Origin: a virus
Reading direction: 5' to 3' (one strand)
IMG/VR virus record: IMGVR_UViG_3300046690_000784
Coordinates: 1-30,038 of that record
DNA length: 30,038 nt
This document shows, piece by piece, positions 8,662 to 28,345 of this stretch (position 1 is the stretch's first letter; every line of letters starts with the position of its first letter). Below the pieces are notes generated by a model that was given only the letters and a program-made list of their open reading frames with translations, was not told the DNA's origin and did not search any database. Both the position numbers and the translations under genes were made by a program.

Positions 8662-9480
8662 TCATTCGGTTAATGGAGAAAAGAGCCAACCCTTGTAGGG
8701 GGTAGCGGCTCCCTTTCGTGCCTTATGATTGCGATACCCGACGATGTCGAGCTTTAGCAATCGGCAAGCGTGTTTGACTGAACAAAAAAGTGTGCGTTCA
8801 CCTGTTTCGATATTCTCTCCGACAATATCGCAGACCCTGCCTAGCGTGTACTCCTCGCTATCATCCGGAGCAAGGAATTCAGGCCATGGTTTTCCGTCAT
8901 CGAACTTGTACACCCGGCCTAGGTGTTTGATTCGACCGGCTGCCACAGACCAGAGGTGGATGAACATGACCGACTGGGTCACACCGGCTTTTCGAGCACA
9001 CTCGCTTACCGAGTAGTAGCTCTCCATTTCGCCAGTCTCTACGTCTTTGGACAAAACCTTGAGCTGGTTGCTAAACAACCCGTGCTCTCGGGCATGTTTC
9101 ATGTTTTCTTCACCAGTGACCCACTCGAGGTTATCCCAAACGTTGTTCAGCTTGTCACCGTCGATATGGTTCACTTGCAATTCATCGAAGCTGATCTCTT
9201 TGTGTCGTTCAGGTTTATCCACGAACAGCAAAGCTACCAGCCGATGGACTAAGTAGTTTTTCCAAATCCCATCGTCACAGAGCGTGGTAATTACGTACCC
9301 TCTCCCGGCAATCCGCGTGAAGTGTTTCTCGCCTGTAATGAGATTGATGAGCTCGCCACGCTTGTTAATCACCACATGACTTTGACCAACTGGGACTTGG
9401 TAATACCCTTTGTAGTAGGGATGCTCGCCCGTAAACGGGGGAACATAGCTGTCTACAGCATTGTCTATTGTTTCGTTCAT
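8662..9480 (-). CDS. HNH homing endonuclease with C-terminal DNA-binding repeats
   Basis: A 272-aa protein. The HNH core is [11 protein letters not shown] (H79), then [11 protein letters not shown] (N104/H105, D107) and [14 protein letters not shown] (N117, N126, H129), the arrangement of the I-HmuI/HNH_3 type. The N-terminus has a NUMOD4-like start ([21 protein letters not shown]). The C-terminal half has two similar units, each beginning with VETGE or IETGE and followed by a helix-turn-helix-like segment ([10 protein letters not shown] and SVKHACRLL), as in NUMOD1-type DNA-binding repeats. It lies directly upstream of terL and in the same reading frame, separated only by its TGA stop. Its ATG overlaps the stop of a 16-codon upstream ORF (ATGA). 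Flanking sequence is too short for a normal group I intron core, so it is probably a free-standing element or a recent insertion into terL. Confidence 0.9.
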
Positions 9481-11280: not shown

Positions 11281-11292
11281 CAACGGCATAAA
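11281..11292 (-). promoter_or_regulatory. TTTATGCCGTTG element
   Basis: On the minus strand, TTTATGCCGTTGATCC begins directly at the base of the hairpin 11293-11312 and lies about 45 nt upstream of the 413-aa gene. It closely matches the elements at 13015 and 26152 (TTATGCCGCTGATTCG), supporting a shared late-promoter or processing function. Confidence 0.6.
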
Positions 11293-12577: not shown

Positions 12578-12698
12578 GTTTTCGACCATGCGGTGTCATT
12601 CATCAACAATACAATCCAATACCTATCCAAAACTATCTCTGTCGCTACGCTCGTGCCTTACTTCCTTTTCCCTAGCGCGCCAGCGCTCACTCTCTAGG

Positions 12699-12727
12699 TT
12701 GACAAACCCCGGTCTAAACTTTTTAAA
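12699..12727 (+). promoter_or_regulatory. Possible host sigma70 promoter
   Basis: A perfect -35 hexamer TTGACA, a 17-bp spacer and a weak -10 TTTAAA (4 of 6 matches). A hairpin follows within a few bases, so productive transcription is doubtful. Confidence 0.3.
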
Positions 12728-12730
12728 AAG

Positions 12731-12755
12731 GGGAAGGGGGACCAAGCCCCTTCCC
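12731..12755. terminator. Hairpin GGGAAGGGG/CCCCTTCCC
   Basis: A perfect 9-bp stem with a 7-nt loop. No U-tract follows, so it may be a processing or regulatory structure rather than an intrinsic terminator. Confidence 0.5.
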
Positions 12756-12836
12756 GGATAAGTTAATATCGGGTTTAGAAGCTAAGTACTTGATTTATAA
12801 GGATAAAGTAAAAAAATACTGTGTAGGAACTTAGAT

Positions 12837-12887
12837 ATGTGTCAAGGAGCAGAGGCGACGCGGAGCGAAGCGGAGGAAGAGAATTAA
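12837..12887 (+). CDS. Possible 16-aa leader peptide
   Basis: The frame MCQGAEATRSEAEEEN starts at an ATG with AGGA eight nt upstream and stops four bases before a strong terminator hairpin (12892-12914). Only the arrangement of ribosome-binding site, short ORF and terminator supports it. It could be a leader peptide or chance; the acidic composition comes from a purine-rich GCGGAGCGAAGCGGAG stretch. Confidence 0.25.
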   Translation: MCQGAEATRSEAEEEN

Positions 12888-12891
12888 GCGT

Positions 12892-12914
12892 AGAGAGGGG
12901 CGGAGCCCCTCTCT
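12892..12914 (+). terminator. Intrinsic terminator
   Basis: AGAGAGGGGC / GCCCCTCTCT is a perfect 10-bp stem with a GGA loop followed by TTTATTATT. It ends a short transcript that must start between about 12700 and 12880. Confidence 0.75.
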
Positions 12915-12990
12915 TTATTATTCCCTAGAAAGGAATACTCCCTGGAGTCATACTCTGTAAGAATAGAATATTTAATTACAAGACCAGACT

Positions 12991-13014
12991 GAGCCGGGCA
13001 CAGCAGCCTGGCTC
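12991..13014 (+). terminator. Hairpin terminator
   Basis: GAGCCGGGC / GCCTGGCTC forms a 9-bp stem (one G-U pair) with a 6-nt loop, directly followed by TTATGCCG. Confidence 0.6.
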
Positions 13015-13030
13015 TTATGCCGCTGATTCG
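13015..13030 (+). promoter_or_regulatory. TTATGCCGCTGATTCG element
   Basis: This 16-nt sequence is identical to the one at 26152-26167 upstream of the DNA polymerase gene. Both start at or just after the end of a terminator. It contains the TATG core known for phiKZ-type late promoters. Confidence 0.6.
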
Positions 13031-13032
13031 CG

Positions 13033-13062
13033 ATCCTAGAAAGATTCAAACATATATTCTCC
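13033..13062 (+). promoter_or_regulatory. phiKZ-type early promoter (copy 1)
   Basis: TATATT is at 13053-13058, preceded by AGAAAGATTCAAACA. The arrangement matches the copies at 13760 and 19426 except for one base less between the two blocks. A hairpin (13067-13095: GAGC and GCAAGT paired with ACTTGC and GCTC) follows immediately and would cap the transcript. The closest gene start is 13122. Confidence 0.7.
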
Positions 13063-13121
13063 CGGCGAGCACAAGCAAGTAAAGACTTGCAGCTCGTTCC
13101 TATCACTACACGCCGAGACCT

Positions 13122-13352
13122 ATGCCTGAACGCTTTACCGCCATCCTGGCTAACTTTAAGAAGATCCATGAGGAAACTCAGGATCTCACGCAAGACCGTA
13201 GCTGTCGTCAACCGCCTCACGGCATGCAGTGGCTGATACGAAATCGTAAACGGACTAACTGTGCGTCGTCGGATTGGTCGGCGATTCATGGTCATGGTGG
13301 TCCGTGCAATTGCGGCTTGATGGATAGCCATCGTCGCTTAAGAACCCATTAA
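13122..13352 (+). CDS. Small Cys/His-containing protein, uncertain (76 aa)
   Basis: The first ATG after early promoter copy 1 opens a 76-codon frame with a plausible N-terminus (MPERFTAILANFKKIHEETQ) and a C-terminal half holding Cys and His (CRQPPHGM, NCASSDW, HGHGGPCNCG). These could bind zinc. The Shine-Dalgarno is poor. The last third has less typical codon use, so the end may not be a natural C-terminus. It stops 18 nt before the next gene. It could be a real early gene or the untranslated leader of the gene at 13371. Confidence 0.45.
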   Translation: MPERFTAILANFKKIHEETQDLTQDRSCRQPPHGMQWLIRNRKRTNCASSDWSAIHGHGGPCNCGLMDSHRRLRTH

Positions 13353-13370
13353 CCGTTCAAGGAGAACGAC

Positions 13371-13750: not shown

Positions 13751-13759
13751 AGAGTCGTG

Positions 13760-13790
13760 GATTGAAAAAGATTTCAACCATATATTCTCC
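13760..13790 (+). promoter_or_regulatory. phiKZ-type early promoter (copy 2)
   Basis: GATTGAAAAAGATTTCA is followed by TATATT at 13781-13786. Spacing from GATTG to TATATT is exactly that of copy 3 (19426). A stem GTTAGA/TCTAAC (13797-13821) follows. The next start codon is 78 nt downstream. Confidence 0.75.
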
Positions 13791-13863
13791 GGCTGAGTTA
13801 GAGCAAGTAACAAGTTCTAACCACTTTCGTTGTTCAACCTCTTCTCAAGCAATTGGAGAAACC

Positions 13864-14127
13864 ATGTCGCAAAACAAGCCCTTTCGCTTCGTTCGTCCGG
13901 ACCACATCTTTCGCAAGTCTGAAGCGAAGGACCATACGCCGAAGCGCAGGCAACTCCTGGACATCTACGACATCGAAGAAATGTCAGTGTTCGAGGAGGT
14001 TCAGGAAGTCTCGCTGCGCCATGAGCTGAATCTGCCTGAGCAGTTCGGCTTAGCAGAAGAGACGTCCTTTGGCTACACCGAAGCCTGGTCGAGTGACGCC
14101 CTCGATGCACTCTTCGCAGCTGAGTAA
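13864..14127 (+). CDS. Unknown early protein (87 aa)
   Basis: The start is the ATG at 13864 with GGAG seven nt upstream; an earlier in-frame ATG at 13762 overlaps the early promoter and is rejected. The protein has a basic N-terminal third (KPFRFVRPDHIFRKSEAKD, KRRQ) and a strongly acidic remainder ending DALDALFAAE. The charge is thus very asymmetric, as in small nucleic-acid- or RNA-polymerase-interacting phage proteins. It is closed by the terminator at 14140. No family is recognised. Confidence 0.75.
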   Translation: MSQNKPFRFVRPDHIFRKSEAKDHTPKRRQLLDIYDIEEMSVFEEVQEVSLRHELNLPEQFGLAEETSFGYTEAWSSDALDALFAAE

Positions 14128-14139
14128 GTCGTAGTACCG

Positions 14140-14165
14140 ACAGGGGAGAGAAGATGCTCCCCTGT
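14140..14165 (+). terminator. Intrinsic terminator
   Basis: ACAGGGGAG / CTCCCCTGT is a perfect 9-bp stem with an 8-nt loop, followed by TTTT. Confidence 0.8.
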
Positions 14166-14205
14166 TTTTGAATACCCCCTACATTTAAACAAGGAAGCAA
14201 AAGCC

Positions 14206-14631
14206 ATGTTCACTCTGCACATCAACGCCGCTCATCGTTCTAACGTCATCCGTGCTACGGTTCGCCGTACGCTGGAAGAAGATACCGTTACTGGCCATGT
14301 GAGCCGCAGCTGGTCGCAGGAAGAAGACATCGTCCTCGAAGCAGGTACGGTGTTGGGGAAGACCGAAGTCCTCTCGACGATCTTTGGCAAGAAGATCACC
14401 ACGATGGTCGTCGAAGGCCTGGACGGTCTGGGGCTGAATCTCACGACCGATGCGTCGGCACGCGATTCGATCTTCGGTGAAAACAGCGTGACAGTGGTTC
14501 GTATCCAGTCGGACGTCGAATCCCTGCTGAGCGCCGCACGGGTGTCGCGCCCGATGCCGCGTCGCAATGTCGAAGAAGTGCGCATCTCGGTGCGCCGTGC
14601 AGAACGTCCGCGTACGCGCTTCGGCTTCTAA
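14206..14631 (+). CDS. Unknown protein, paralogous to the next gene (141 aa)
   Basis: Starts behind AAGGAAG. The central part resembles the next gene: an Arg/Glu-rich run, then SIFGKKITTMVVEGLDGLGL, then a second strand pair (SIFGENSVTVVRI). The equivalent in the next gene is SFYGRRIKSFMVEGIEHLPL and GIYGATTIKIYKI. The C-terminus is basic (RVSRPMPRRN, RRAERPRTRFGF). It has no membrane segment or catalytic signature. The paralogous pair probably arose by tandem duplication within the early block. Function unknown. Confidence 0.75.
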   Translation: MFTLHINAAHRSNVIRATVRRTLEEDTVTGHVSRSWSQEEDIVLEAGTVLGKTEVLSTIFGKKITTMVVEGLDGLGLNLTTDASARDSIFGENSVTVVRIQSDVESLLSAARVSRPMPRRNVEEVRISVRRAERPRTRFGF

Positions 14632-21054: not shown

Positions 21055-21282
21055 ATGTTTAGCCAGATTAGCTCTCTGGCCCGTTGGTGGTGGTCTGACT
21101 TTGGACGGTTTATCTATCACGATTTTTCGTGGTTCCCGTCCATTCAGGCCGCCGCCACTCGTAAAGTTCATCGGTCCTCACCCTTGCAGGCGCATGCGAG
21201 GGTGAATAGACATCATGCGCGACGTCCCCAGCTGGGGAAGGCAACGCGAGCTAAGGGTGCTCGTAGTACCTTCAGCCATTGA
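21055..21282 (+). CDS. Doubtful small ORF after phuZ (75 aa)
   Basis: ATG at 21055 opens a frame whose first 35 residues are aromatic and plausible (MFSQISSLARWWWSDFGRFI). From about 21178 onward it reads through two strong stems (TCACCCTTGCA/TGCGAGGGTGA and CCCCAGCTGGGG), and the amino acids become His/Arg/Ala rich like translated structured RNA. Only a short N-terminal peptide, or nothing, may be made. Confidence 0.25.
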   Translation: MFSQISSLARWWWSDFGRFIYHDFSWFPSIQAAATRKVHRSSPLQAHARVNRHHARRPQLGKATRAKGARSTFSH

Positions 21283-21690
21283 GGCGATGCGCTTGGCCCG
21301 TTGACTCGGACCGATGATTTGGCCACGCGCAGACTTTAGTCCCATTCCAGCCGAACCGCGCATCAGGCGCAGGGGGTGCATCAGGGGCTAGGGTCTTTTA
21401 CATTCCGTGAGTAATGGCCTGCCGCCTACTGGTGCGCAGGAGGCAATAAGTGCGACAGTTTTCAAGGGAGTACCCGAAGCAATTGTTTAGAGGTCCATGG
21501 ACTGTCTAAAAATTAGCACTAGGGCCTAACACTTGGCTCGCAGCTTGAGATGTCCAGACCGCCTCAGTTCCGACCGCAACAATACCACAGTCCGTTTTAC
21601 GGGTAGCTGCTTGGGTGAGCATCGGACGAGGCGAGTCCCTTTTATGCCTTCCTACGGGAGGGTGCAAAAGGGACTGATTATTTTTTTATG
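21170..21690 (+). ncRNA. Candidate structured non-coding RNA A
   Basis: About 520 nt without a convincing gene. Visible stems: TCACCCTTGCA/TGCGAGGGTGA (21178-21205), the palindrome CCCCAGCTGGGG (21226-21237), GCTAAGG/CCTTCAGC (21250-21276), TGCCGCCT/AGGAGGCA (21420-21445), GACAGT/ACTGTC closing a 41-nt domain (21454-21506), CCGT/ACGG (21592-21602). It ends in a strong terminator. I cannot match it to RNase P, tmRNA or a group I intron by eye. It may instead be a long structured 3' or 5' UTR. Confidence 0.5.
21634..21687 (+). terminator. Strong intrinsic terminator ending candidate RNA A
   Basis: AGTCCCTTTT / AAAAGGGACT is a perfect 10-bp stem enclosing an inner CCTTCC-TAC-GGGAGG hairpin, followed by ATTATTTTTTT. 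Confidence 0.85.
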
Positions 21691-21693
21691 CCG
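21685..21693 (+). promoter_or_regulatory. TTTATGCCG element before the small-gene array
   Basis: It overlaps the end of the terminator U-tract and lies about 60 nt upstream of the gene at 21753, as in the other TTTATGCCG copies. Confidence 0.55.
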
Positions 21694-21752
21694 CAGTTAC
21701 ACAAATAGTCAAAACAAACGTAGCCGCTGGATACTGTGTATAAGGAGCCGCC

Positions 21753-25213: not shown

Positions 25214-25246
25214 TCTTTTTTTTTGTTCATTTGGGCACGGGAAACC

Positions 25247-25648
25247 ATGGCTTACAATTTTGCTATCGGGCAGACGTACTCGTTTAACGTCTATCCGCCT
25301 CTGCTGGGCAGTGACTGGCAGAACGTCAAGGTCACCTCGGTGATGTCGTACGAAGACGCGATGAAGGACGAAGACATGACGTCCTTGCACGTGCAGTTCT
25401 ATCCGTTCTTCGGTCCGCAGACCCACACGCCGAACGATCCGGCCGCGTACCTGTACATCAAGGTCAAGACGCAAAACGGCAACACCCAAATTCTGGGTGT
25501 GGCATGGATTGACGACTCGTCCGTGACGCTCGTCACAGCGCAGACCATCACGGCGACCATCGCCCAGGTGACCCCGCAGGACATTCCGAAGGTTCAGGCT
25601 ATTTTGGCCGCCAACGGTTACAACTTCGTTACGGTAGCGATCAAGTAA
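25247..25648 (+). CDS. Phage SH3-like small protein (133 aa)
   Basis: The start is ATG at 25247; the frame is open to 25223 but the extension (MFIWARET) lacks a good ribosome-binding site. The chain is beta-rich: a YNFAIGQTYSFNVYPPLLG opening strand, then MTSLHVQFYPFFGPQTHTP, YLYIKVKTQNGNTQILGVAW and a helix-strand end (IPKVQAILAANGYNFVTVAI). I recognise this layout (short N-terminal FxIGxTYxF, central YxYxKxKTxxGxxxxLGVxW) from small SH3-fold proteins common in tailed phages, many of unknown or virion-associated role. The assignment is by pattern memory. Confidence 0.7.
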   Translation: MAYNFAIGQTYSFNVYPPLLGSDWQNVKVTSVMSYEDAMKDEDMTSLHVQFYPFFGPQTHTPNDPAAYLYIKVKTQNGNTQILGVAWIDDSSVTLVTAQTITATIAQVTPQDIPKVQAILAANGYNFVTVAIK

Positions 25649-26151
25649 ACGTGGGTTTACCCTAGTTAATTTATATCGCCCATCCGTAATGTTCTGAAGA
25701 GAAAGGCCCGGCAAGCCTGTACCCTCATCGACAGCAGACCTCCTCCTGACTGGTGCCGATAAGGACTCTCGCGCGAGCCCTCCCGCGGGCTACCGCGCCG
25801 TATGCCTAGACGCGGGGCTGGCTTATTCACGCTGCTGGGGTTTCCTCCTTGTTTCCCCTGGCACCAGCGTTTCCTCGTACATCGATCCTACTCCTATCGC
25901 TGCTCTGCGCCTCCGCAAGCGCTCTTTGGCGAATATAGGAGTCTCCTGTGGAAGTTGGTCGATCGCGTGGATTAAGAGTAAGCTGGCCCCTGTCTATCTC
26001 GATTTTGGTTGAAGTGGTAGTGGTGGTAGAGTCTCTGTGGCTCCGAATTGATCGGGCATGTTCAGTGACTGGTTTTCCTTTTCGGTACTTGTAACGACCT
26101 GTATTTAGGCGAGGTGGCGGCCCGAAACCGCTCCTCGCCCTTTTTTCCTTT
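25649..26151 (+). ncRNA. Candidate structured non-coding RNA B
   Basis: About 500 nt without a gene. Stems seen: CTGGTGCC (25750-25757) pairs with GGCACCAG (25860-25867) and closes a 102-nt domain that holds AGCCC-TCCCGC-GGGCT and CTCGCGCGAG. A second domain is ACTCCTAT (25890-25897) with ATAGGAGT (25935-25942), enclosing CGCT-GCTC-TGCG-CCTC-CGCA-AGCG. An AT-rich TTAATTTATATCG near 25665 could hold its promoter. It ends in the terminator at 26108-26139. The family is not recognised; a long UTR is the alternative. Confidence 0.55.
26108..26146 (+). terminator. Intrinsic terminator ending candidate RNA B
   Basis: GGCGAGG / CCTCGCC is a 7-bp stem with inner GG/CC pairing, followed by TTTTTT. 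Confidence 0.8.
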
Positions 26152-26167
26152 TTATGCCGCTGATTCG
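26152..26167 (+). promoter_or_regulatory. TTATGCCGCTGATTCG element before DNA polymerase
   Basis: An exact 16-nt repeat of the element at 13015-13030. It follows the terminator's T-run and is about 50 nt upstream of the polymerase start. Confidence 0.65.
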
Positions 26168-26215
26168 TTTTTATTGGGCTCCTTGATCATGTAGGTCGAC
26201 AAGGAGTAAAACAAA

Positions 26216-28345
26216 GTGTCAGAAGCGAACAACCCATTTGTACTGGCGCCTTCCCAGTACAAGCGCGATCTAAACGTCCTCGGCTATTATGTCCAGGACT
26301 GCGCGACCTATTTGCATCAAATGACGGGGGCACCGATCGAGGACTGCACGACCTTTGTGAAAACGGAGATGCGTCCCGGCGGACAGTTTGAATTCAAGGA
26401 CCCGAAGATCGTCTACCTCGAGCGTCAGGAAAACGGTGACCGGGTCCAGATGGAAGGCACGCTGCAAGCCTACCTGAATGATTCGATCCGTAACAAAGAA
26501 CTGATTGCGCCGACGCTCACCACGTATTTGCATCCGGACCAGAAGCAGTCACCGCTCGTCGACTACATCGAGGGCAACGTGAAAGCACGGGGGGTGGCGA
26601 AGAAGGCAAAGTTCAAGGCGGAAATGGAAGGCGACATCGTCCTGATGCAGATCAAGGACAATGAGCAGACCAATAAGAAGCTGGCGAATAACTCGATCTC
26701 GGGTGCGCACGTTTCACCTTCGACGCCGCTGTACAATAAGACCGCTCACTCGACGCTCACCTCGAACTGTCGCTCGACCTCGGGCTTTGGTAATGCGAAT
26801 AACGAGAAGTTCCTCTCGGGCAATCGCCATTACTGGTCGATCGAGATCTGCATGCAAAATATCATCTCGATTATCAACCACACGGACTATGCAGCGCAAG
26901 CTGCGGCGATGCAGAAGTTTGGCATTCGTCACCCGTCGGTCGATGAGACGATGGAATGCATCATGTACTCGACGAACTTCTATGTGCGCGACAAGTTCAA
27001 GATGAAAAAGGTGTATGACCTGGTGAAGACGCTCTCGCCCGAGCAGCGTTCCGCCTTTGTCTACACGGGTGACTTGTACCACCTGATGCGCTTTAATGAC
27101 GAGGTGGTGCGTAAGTTCATCAGCAAGCTGTCGATGCTGGTGGAAGTGCCGCATCCGGAGCCGGACAGCATCTTGAAGACGGTGCAAGAAGAACACGTGC
27201 ACCTGGCAGCCCAAATCTGTGAGCGCTACACCAAGGGCTTGCAGATGCATGAAATCGTCGGCGAAGCGCGCGGTATCCTGGCCTCGACGGCCAAGAACAT
27301 CGGCGACGTGGGTGAAGAGTATCGGGACCTGATTGCGGCCTTCTGGGTGACGACGAATGTACCGGCCTCGCTCGCGTTCTTCCCCGACTCGATTCGTCGT
27401 TCGGCGATTACGTCGGATACGGACTCGACCATCTTTACCGTGCAAGACTGGGTGCTCTGGCATCAGGGCTGGCTCGGTTTTGACGAGAAGTGTAATGCGG
27501 TGGCAGCGTCGATGGTGTACCTCGCTGCGCAGACCATCATTCACGTCTTGGCGCGCATGAGTGCGAACTTTGGCATTGTGGAGAAGTACATCCACAAAGT
27601 CGCCATGAAGAACGAATTCAAGTTCGACGTGTTTGTCGCGACCCAAGTGGCCAAGCACTATTTCGCCTTGATTGGCTGCCAGGAAGGCAACCTCTTCAAA
27701 GAGTACAAGAAGGAAATCAAGGGCGTGCACTTGAAGGCGTCGAACGCCCCGCGCTTCGTGATTAAGGAAGCCGAGAAGATGATGCTCTTTATCATGAACT
27801 CGGTCCTGAAGGGCGAGAAGATCAAGATCCACGACATCCTGAAGACGATTGCTGACATCGAGCGCCAGATCTTTACGGCGATCGGCGAAGGCGGCTATCA
27901 GTTTTTCCGGATGGGTCAGATCAAAACGCCCGATTCGTATGCGAAGTCGGCGGATGAATCGCCGTATCAGCAGTACGTGATGTGGAATGAGGTGTTTGGT
28001 CCCAAGTACGGTATCGCCCCCCCTGTACCGTACACCTGTGTCAAGATTGCCACTGAGCTGGACACACCGACTAAGACCCGTGAGTGGTTAGAGTCGCTCG
28101 AGGATCGGGAACTGGCAGGTCGCATGGAAGCGTACATGAAGCGAATGGGTAAGCGCTATGTGGGCTCGGTGCAATTGCCGGAACAGAATCTCCAGACTAA
28201 AGGGATTCCGACTGAAATCCTCCAGGTGGCTGGGGTGCGTAAGATCGTCGCGGATGCTACGCGCGTATTTTACATTATCCTCGAAACGCTCGGGATTTAT
28301 CTCTCGAACGACAAATTGACACGCCTCGTGTCAGACTCGCACTAA
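26216..28345 (+). CDS. Divergent family B DNA polymerase, C-terminal (palm/thumb) part
   Basis: The start is GTG at 26216 with AAGGAG nine nt upstream. The 709-aa protein carries a motif B-like helix (QTNKKLANNSISGAHVSP, ~151-168, K155 and N159-S160), motif C as ITSDTDSTIFTVQ (D401, D403), and downstream the family B tract HYFALIGCQEG followed by KGVHLKASNAP (~481-512), equivalent to the KKRY and KGxxxxRxxxP region that binds template. No motif A (DxxSLYP) and no 3'-5' exonuclease motifs are present, so these must be encoded by another gene. The split-polymerase layout is known from phiKZ-type phages. The protein should function only with its N-terminal partner. Confidence 0.85.
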   Translation: MSEANNPFVLAPSQYKRDLNVLGYYVQDCATYLHQMTGAPIEDCTTFVKTEMRPGGQFEFKDPKIVYLERQENGDRVQMEGTLQAYLNDSIRNKELIAPTLTTYLHPDQKQSPLVDYIEGNVKARGVAKKAKFKAEMEGDIVLMQIKDNEQTNKKLANNSISGAHVSPSTPLYNKTAHSTLTSNCRSTSGFGNANNEKFLSGNRHYWSIEICMQNIISIINHTDYAAQAAAMQKFGIRHPSVDETMECIMYSTNFYVRDKFKMKKVYDLVKTLSPEQRSAFVYTGDLYHLMRFNDEVVRKFISKLSMLVEVPHPEPDSILKTVQEEHVHLAAQICERYTKGLQMHEIVGEARGILASTAKNIGDVGEEYRDLIAAFWVTTNVPASLAFFPDSIRRSAITSDTDSTIFTVQDWVLWHQGWLGFDEKCNAVAASMVYLAAQTIIHVLARMSANFGIVEKYIHKVAMKNEFKFDVFVATQVAKHYFALIGCQEGNLFKEYKKEIKGVHLKASNAPRFVIKEAEKMMLFIMNSVLKGEKIKIHDILKTIADIERQIFTAIGEGGYQFFRMGQIKTPDSYAKSADESPYQQYVMWNEVFGPKYGIAPPVPYTCVKIATELDTPTKTREWLESLEDRELAGRMEAYMKRMGKRYVGSVQLPEQNLQTKGIPTEILQVAGVRKIVADATRVFYIILETLGIYLSNDKLTRLVSDSH

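Follow-up and report, generated by a model that had tools for sequence, protein, structure and literature searches.

A covarying non-coding RNA beside the DNA polymerase gene of jumbo phages

The spacer between the SH3-like gene and the DNA polymerase gene

Does the long spacer upstream of the DNA polymerase gene in this viral DNA hold an RNA gene and, if so, how might such an RNA act? The window, that is the whole stretch analysed here (30,038 nt, positions 1 to 30,038 of IMG/VR record IMGVR_UViG_3300046690_000784), encodes a PhuZ-type tubulin, a large terminase and a DNA polymerase, as judged from PHROG matches, and near-identical records are ~313 kb long; the window is thus part of a jumbo phage. 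An SH3-like gene of unknown function (25223–25648, plus strand; PHROG 3235), the homologue of which in SURPRISE13 is annotated as an SH3 domain, is followed on the same strand by the polymerase gene (26216–28345; PHROG 2927, E 5.9e-252), annotated as family B in relatives. The 567 nt from the stop of the former (25648) to the start of the latter (26216) contain no credible gene. The same gene order is found in FLC9, a cultured phage with Burkholderia glumae as host, and there too the spacer carries no annotated gene. The proposed non-coding RNA gene occupies 25691–26146 of the plus strand, leaving the polymerase gene outside, and has a 73-pair core structure with covariation; its length of ~455 nt is counted from the conserved 5′ block to the terminator, with a start guessed at ~25691.

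The first-pass annotation, made from the letters and a list of reading frames, had seen no gene in 25649–26151, and our results concur with this. Besides the unannotated FLC9 spacer, open reading frames (ORFs) inside the region encode only 54–57 aa, and relatives differ by insertions and deletions that are usually 1, 2 or 4 nt long, which implies that no reading frame is kept. In blastn searches, the window spacer matched FLC9 with 67.8% identity and 96% query coverage; no other phage record with the window's RNA was found in this way (WXIN gave a 36-nt match with E 2), and the RNA of a second subclade (subclade B, below) retrieved no phage record when used as the blastn query. Close relatives are present in IMG/VR. 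Three ~310-kb records and FLC9 each have a single copy of the RNA, and the 5′ block of the window's subclade is absent from the bacterial genome contigs searched.

Conservation poorer than that of ordinary spacers was named in the first-pass annotation as a point that would refute the RNA. The RNA part (25680–26151) is 98.3% identical to that of the relative L009, a value higher than those at third codon positions in the polymerase gene (85.1%) and the SH3-like gene (87.2%). Identity to L011 is 89.6% ungapped (85.6% with gaps), as against 67.9% at third positions of the polymerase, and identity to FLC9 is 61.9% ungapped (58.1% with gaps), as against 55.0%. Taken together, these values point to purifying selection at short range and to free change of letters over longer distances. 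On the other hand, of the 16 spacers of ≥150 nt in ~138 kb of FLC9, 14 match the 313-kb record, and the identity of the RNA (68%) is the lowest of the 14, some of the other spacers being possible carriers of unannotated genes. Accordingly, identity alone does not single the RNA out; covariation does.

Covariation and architecture of the RNA

Nine distinct sequences, namely the window and eight relatives including FLC9, were aligned up to the terminator (alignment A6) and folded with RNAalifold, which returned 93 pairs; manual removal of 20 weaker or isolated pairs left the 73-pair core that was counted. Standard pairs are formed in 98.5% of its 654 cells. As many as 21 pairs are changed on both sides (57 cells so changed), counted in the same alignment from which the structure was derived and in rows that represent few lineages (window-like, L011, L012/L033 and L014/FLC9), so that independent events are fewer than the cell counts. 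None of 500 shuffles reached the observed values of pairing or of both-side change, and sliding the 3′ partners by 1–3 columns lowered pairing to 44–47%. In the number of further pair types, A6 could not be told apart from shuffles (216/500). Single-sequence folding energy gave a weak signal (z = −1.71; 4 of 100 shuffles fold as well), and the case for an RNA therefore rests on covariation. A helix with the polymerase leader, seen in alignment A1, which runs past the terminator, fell mostly in invariant columns; it was rejected and the sequences were re-aligned up to the terminator to give A6. With covariation above both shuffled and slid controls in two subclades, the locus is a real structured non-coding RNA, and we are highly confident that it encodes a structured RNA.

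The architecture comprises a pair of 5′ hairpins, hairpin P2 and a central domain in which a 20-pair long-range helix encloses three hairpins. The presumed promoter region and RNA 5′ end (25664–25691, plus strand, like all parts below) consist of an AT-rich block and the conserved TCCGTAATG; AGTTA and TCCGTAATGTTCTG are unchanged in all 13 rows of A1, and CCGTAATG forms a conserved block at the presumed 5′ end. The late promoter of phiKZ is given as TATG, with +1 at the G, in PMC4666361, whereas the 25664–25691 block has TAATG. A shared promoter made up of a T-tract and ATGTAG was also considered; it has just two intergenic matches in FLC9, and we make no claim for it. In the 5′ element (25692–25718), an invariant UUCU/AGAA hairpin precedes hairpin P1 (AGGC-CCGGCAA-GCCU, 25704–25718), the outer pair of which is A-U in five of nine rows and G-C in four. 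Hairpin P2 (GCGCG-A-GCCC ... GGGC-UAC-CGCGC, 25771–25798) has two pairs changed from C-G to U-A on both sides, while its GCGCG/CGCGC part shows no variation in A6. The central domain (25807–25996) is closed by P3 (25807–25828 with 25976–25996, 20 pairs; helices 5 and 6), which is paired in 100% of cells and has four pairs changed on both sides. Within it, hairpin P3a (25834–25862) presents the pyrimidine loop UUUCCUCCUUGUUUC, almost invariant in A1; hairpin P3b (25890–25942; helices 8–10, with inner GCGC/GCGC and loop CUCCGCAA) has four, one and two pairs changed on both sides in its successive helices; and hairpin P3c (25944–25971), 92.1% paired, has three. The block TTGTAACGACCTGTA (26089–26103), identical in 13 of 13 rows of A1, directly precedes the intrinsic terminator (26108–26146; stem 26108–26139, T-run 26141–26146), in which two of seven counted pairs are changed on both sides.

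Several elements read off by the first-pass annotation reappear in this structure and others dissolve. The AT-rich block that it placed at the 5′ end is located at 25664–25678 and is AT-rich in relatives too; the compensatory changes for which it proposed a check in homologues are found in the 21 pairs counted above; and the RNA does have its own intrinsic terminator, the arms of which vary by lineage, those of L033 and FLC9 having different sequences with complementarity kept. This terminator was missing from the list produced by a simple terminator scan. The stem ACTCCTAT/ATAGGAGT (25890–25897/25935–25942) holds well as the outer part of P3b, being paired in 97.2% of cells with four of eight pairs changed on both sides. 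The CGCT/AGCG and TGCG/CGCA stems proposed inside it turn out to be out of register (77.8% and 83.3% paired), the supported inner helices being TCGC/GCGA and GCGC/GCGC, the latter with loop CTCCGCAA. The long-range pair CTGGTGCC/GGCACCAG (25750–25757/25860–25867), said to close a 102-nt domain, was not upheld: it is paired in 62.5% of cells, five of its eight pairs are broken in four of nine sequences and the other three in one to three sequences. Perfect 8-bp inverted repeats number two in the region, and by our estimate ~2 would be expected by chance in 500 nt.

Beyond the terminator, TTTATGCCG (26151–26159) may be the start signal of a downstream transcript, and a conserved GATC(A/C)TGTAGG block is also found 3′ of the terminator. 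In positions 1–113920 of FLC9, 7.1% of which is intergenic, TATGCCG has 17 intergenic versus 5 coding matches; it fits TATG, the phiKZ late promoter as described in PMC4666361. In the window, TATGCCG sites lie at 11284, 13741, 21685 and 26151; several of the sites in the window and FLC9 come after a terminator.

Distribution among related phages

The survey of this locus covered 122 usable spacers of at least 60 nt, dereplicated to 77; shorter spacers, including that of L025/L075, were left out of the set and of the tree. The distance between the SH3-like gene and the polymerase is ~88–321 nt in one set and ~400–700 nt in another. The short-spacer set includes every named isolate examined other than FLC9; measured between annotated genes, the spacers are 97 nt in Noxifer, 110 in SURPRISE13, 116 in Moabite, 171 in BONAISHI, 180 in pEa_SNUABM_54, 184 in PhiPA3, 201 in PA7, 270 in LucasX and 298 in Goslar. 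Non-redundant spacers of 380–700 nt number 33, and in the 82-row DNA polymerase tree the label for the RNA means a spacer of this length (33 rows) or addition by hand (L054, L057, L085 and L097). All 37 labelled rows fall into one 56-row clade (100% SH-aLRT) and none of the 26 rows outside it is labelled; the other rows inside the clade have short (six) or unclear (13) spacers. The tree omits Goslar, for which the polymerase sequence spans 146 aa. Sixteen of the 37 labelled rows are in alignments with a computed shared fold (A6, A3, A4 and A5), the slid and shuffled controls covering A6 and A3. L025/L075, a relative with 50% polymerase identity, has a 1-nt spacer and hence no RNA at the locus.

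At the same locus, the six sequences of subclade B, with polymerases 43–46% identical to that of the window, have a covarying fold of their own, with 64 pairs, 92.0% pairing and 33 pairs changed on both sides; none of 500 shuffles reached these values, and slid structures were 28–45% paired. Folds with compensatory changes were also obtained for subclades C (three sequences) and D (two), sets too small for a test. For the 5′ hairpin, a model built from nine seed sequences of several subclades and run over 641 kb from 69 sources recovered all nine seeds. It also matched two non-seeds in the SH3–polymerase spacer: L085 (E 1.6e-6), which nearly duplicates seed L057, and L041 (E 3.1e-5), the sole non-seed match at the locus that resembles no seed so closely. 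In FLC9, L014 and L071 (subclade C), the 5′ hairpin was hit precisely but weakly (E 1–2.4), among chance matches of similar score, and within the same 641 kb the window itself and subclade B were unmatched. It is likely, on the basis of position and modelled architecture, that the RNAs of all subclades form one family.

In pattern searches, a 3′-block pattern occurred in seven stretches, including the unrelated L131 and L132, and a 5′-element pattern in nine, of which L125, L127 and L129 have no blastn relation and look like chance matches in coding sequence. A general 5′-hairpin pattern occurred in 15 stretches: five lie beside the polymerase, all on already known contigs, and the other ten, which have neither a polymerase nor an SH3-like gene, were set aside as likely coding chance matches.

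Other spacers of these genomes gave observations in their own right. A region between the PhuZ gene and the next gene (~21283–21712) is probably a second large structured RNA, as modelled with RNAalifold: five sequences gave 119 predicted pairs, 25 of them changed on both sides, and an extended terminator-like hairpin. The whole spacer is 75.4% identical to FLC9 over 755 nt. A 75-aa ORF follows PhuZ at 21055–21282, where FLC9 has no annotated gene at the matching place; the 3′ half of this ORF is unusually conserved in DNA, and gene and RNA perhaps overlap. Another long spacer, at ~12600–13370 of the window as inferred from distances, is conserved too (FLC9 13752–14470 versus the 313-kb relative, 73.1% over 580 nt). 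In L085 (203–380) and at the start of the L059 spacer, a further short element with its own terminator-like hairpin seems, by eye, to lie between the SH3-like gene and the RNA. Finally, an HNH endonuclease gene lies on the minus strand at 8662–9480 (Pfam HNH_3, E 9.3e-10; I-HmuI NUMOD-like, E 1.3e-6), directly upstream of the terminase gene, and is possibly a free-standing homing endonuclease.

Mode of action and relation to known RNA systems

The position of the RNA may be explained in two main ways. In the first, 25691–26146 would be a structured RNA gene, co-directional with its neighbours and ending at its own terminator; its product would be a discrete transcript acting in trans, independently of the polymerase gene, and would serve as the core of an RNA–protein particle or as a riboregulator. 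In the alternative, the polymerase mRNA would carry the RNA as its 5′ leader, with a conditional terminator, and the fold would decide polymerase expression as a sensor or protein-binding site. The leader hypothesis is consistent with most long-spacer loci, where the RNA immediately precedes the polymerase gene in the same orientation, with the presence of a terminator between RNA and polymerase, and with the 180-nt terminator-bearing 5′-UTR RNA that precedes another gene of phiKZ, as recorded in PMC8545117. It fits less well with loci in which ORFs intervene. In L085, ~800 nt separate the RNA terminator (~667–700) from the polymerase start (1501), and two overlapping opposite-strand ORFs of 102 and 120 aa lie between them (705–1372), although these are overlapped by ORFs on the other strand and are candidate genes only; neither has a Pfam match up to E 0.01, and the guess of a toxin gene in L085 gained no Pfam support. 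A same-strand ORF lies between RNA and polymerase in L054 (77 aa) and in L097 (99 aa). Moreover, the start-like TTTATGCCG and the conserved GATC(A/C)TGTAGG block come after the terminator, which argues against a leader.

Potential antiterminator pairing cuts both ways. Pairing of the P2 strand with the terminator 5′ arm reaches −20.5 kcal/mol in the window and L011, close to the −21.7 of the terminator itself, so that the two could compete there; this strong pairing is, however, not kept in L033, L014 and FLC9. In five of five sequences the 5′ arm can also pair moderately well with the P3b strand (columns 213–215, ~−10 kcal/mol), at about half the strength of the terminator (−20 to −24 kcal/mol). 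No strong partner for a terminator arm common to all five sequences tested (window, L011, L033, L014 and FLC9) was found. The intervening ORFs together with the lack of a shared strong antiterminator make an independent RNA gene likelier than a leader, and we consider a cis-acting leader rather unlikely. As a whole, the locus is best explained by an independent, trans-acting RNA gene of ~455 nt, an explanation that we hold to be probable; with the same degree of confidence we infer that the RNA acts in trans rather than as a polymerase leader.

An element acting at the DNA level, such as a replication origin with inverted repeats, might also be expected to adjoin a polymerase gene. This appears very improbable, since G-U intermediates are kept in the long-range pairs, as RNA pairing allows. 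Over most of the 313-kb record the cumulative GC skew declines, and its minimum near the record end, where the RNA site lies, is uninformative for an origin.

If the RNA is an independent, trans-acting gene product, its pyrimidine loop may hint at a partner. Of the 33 non-redundant spacers, 31 contain UCCUU, a count that none of 200 shuffles reached (15.1 expected); the motif is mostly unpaired in the predicted fold in 23 of the 31, and some copies lie near terminators. The stricter CTCCTT, present in 6 of 23 one-per-subclade representatives, is not clearly enriched (13 of 200 shuffles reach this count), and a pyrimidine-run score per sequence gave p ≤0.05 in just 8 of 33. The UCCUU loop, which is similar to the 3′ tail of 16S rRNA, would contact ribosome-binding sites or a protein; a Shine–Dalgarno-like contact, suggested by the motif, is a doubtful reading of it. 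In Goslar (L135, 460–775, minus strand), the 298-nt spacer contains, as seen by eye, a UCCUU pyrimidine-loop hairpin before a terminator, which is possibly a reduced form of the RNA.

In a narrower version of such pairing, the RNA would be an antisense regulator of the polymerase start site, loop 25841–25852 pairing with 26199–26210. A repeat search had returned this 12-nt complementary pair (11/12, 92%), and in FLC9 the polymerase start region comes fifth among 100 genes tested as pairing partners of the loop. When loops alone were compared among 31 related phages, their own pairs had mean ranks of 0.41 and 0.40, a borderline improvement on the 0.5 expected by chance, but with the whole RNA in 33 phages the means were 0.51 for the own site versus other sites and 0.47 for the own RNA versus others. 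A pyrimidine loop of any kind can pair with ribosome-binding sites in general, and CAAGGA is not enriched among the ribosome-binding sites of FLC9 (10/20 versus a genome background of 0.46). Antisense control of the polymerase start seems improbable. A preference for ACAAGG in the same sites was likewise rejected, being no higher than genome background.

From its length and its conservation, the RNA may act within a ribonucleoprotein or as a catalyst. This ~455-nt RNA beside the DNA polymerase gene, supported by covariation, is a conserved phage part overlooked by annotation, and because FLC9, a cultured phage, carries it, its expression, its structure and the effects of its deletion are testable. 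One may speculate, tentatively and with less than even confidence, that it belongs to a new jumbo-phage RNA class ancestral to a large, mostly uncultured clade, with at least two RNA genes within 5 kb in one PhuZ-encoding genome, and that these RNAs form RNA–protein machines for translation or for the replication compartment. If true, the class would be something like a phage counterpart of ribosomal or 6S-type RNA functions.

The RNA is apparently new, with no family in the Rfam library searched and no published description found. As the first-pass annotation had surmised from the lack of a sequence match, none of 4227 Rfam families (RNase P, tmRNA, 6S, riboswitches and others) reached its gathering cut-off in the window, and none appeared up to E 5 in 25500–26300; over 18 related loci, the only matches were two tRNAs in L027, ~4 kb upstream of the RNA locus. 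No description of this RNA was seen among the literature matches listed for phiKZ-like ncRNA, FLC9 and ROOL/GOLLD, which consisted of titles and abstract openings, mainly open-access. By the count in PMC8545117, 21 phage ncRNAs had been described up to 2021, and Grad-seq of phiKZ adds two short UTR-derived candidates, one of ~100 nt between PHIKZ298 and PHIKZ297 and one of 180 nt in the p40 5′ UTR. These are likewise ncRNAs of a phiKZ-like jumbo phage, but they come from other loci, are much shorter and are UTR fragments; at the SH3–polymerase locus itself, PA7 and PhiPA3 have merely 201 and 184 nt.

The anti-Shine-Dalgarno 'cuckoo' RNAs of Rhodobacter and Rhizobiales are small and have a hairpin loop rich in CCUCC/UCCUU; the loop described here is similar, yet it takes up only a small share of a large fold. 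Terminator-bearing leaders such as attenuators and riboswitches share the combination of a structured RNA and an intrinsic terminator upstream of a gene, but differ in that here no strong antiterminator is common to the five sequences and other ORFs may intervene.

Like ROOL and GOLLD, the present RNA is a large, multi-helix, apparently non-coding phage RNA of unknown function. ROOL and GOLLD are often encoded near tRNA islands, unlike this RNA, which lies beside the DNA polymerase gene with no tRNA in the 30-kb window. It is also shorter, at ~455 nt, than the solved ROOL of 659 nt and the many GOLLD of more than 800 nt mentioned in PMC12286853, and the covariance models of both families left it unmatched. 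The large, ornate phage RNA imagined in the first-pass annotation is supported by covariation, whereas its likeness to GOLLD or ROOL is one of analogy. By the same analogy, copies of the RNA might assemble into an RNA-only cage or ring, as large, ornate, phage-borne RNAs are known to do in the homo-oligomers of ROOL and GOLLD (PMC12286853); the palindrome CCGG in the 5′ loop of the window's subclade would suit such contacts, but by eye it is missing from the loops of the other aligned subclades, and these differences in family, length and tRNA context make an RNA-only particle improbable. As with ROOL and GOLLD, the RNA could be produced and imaged directly.
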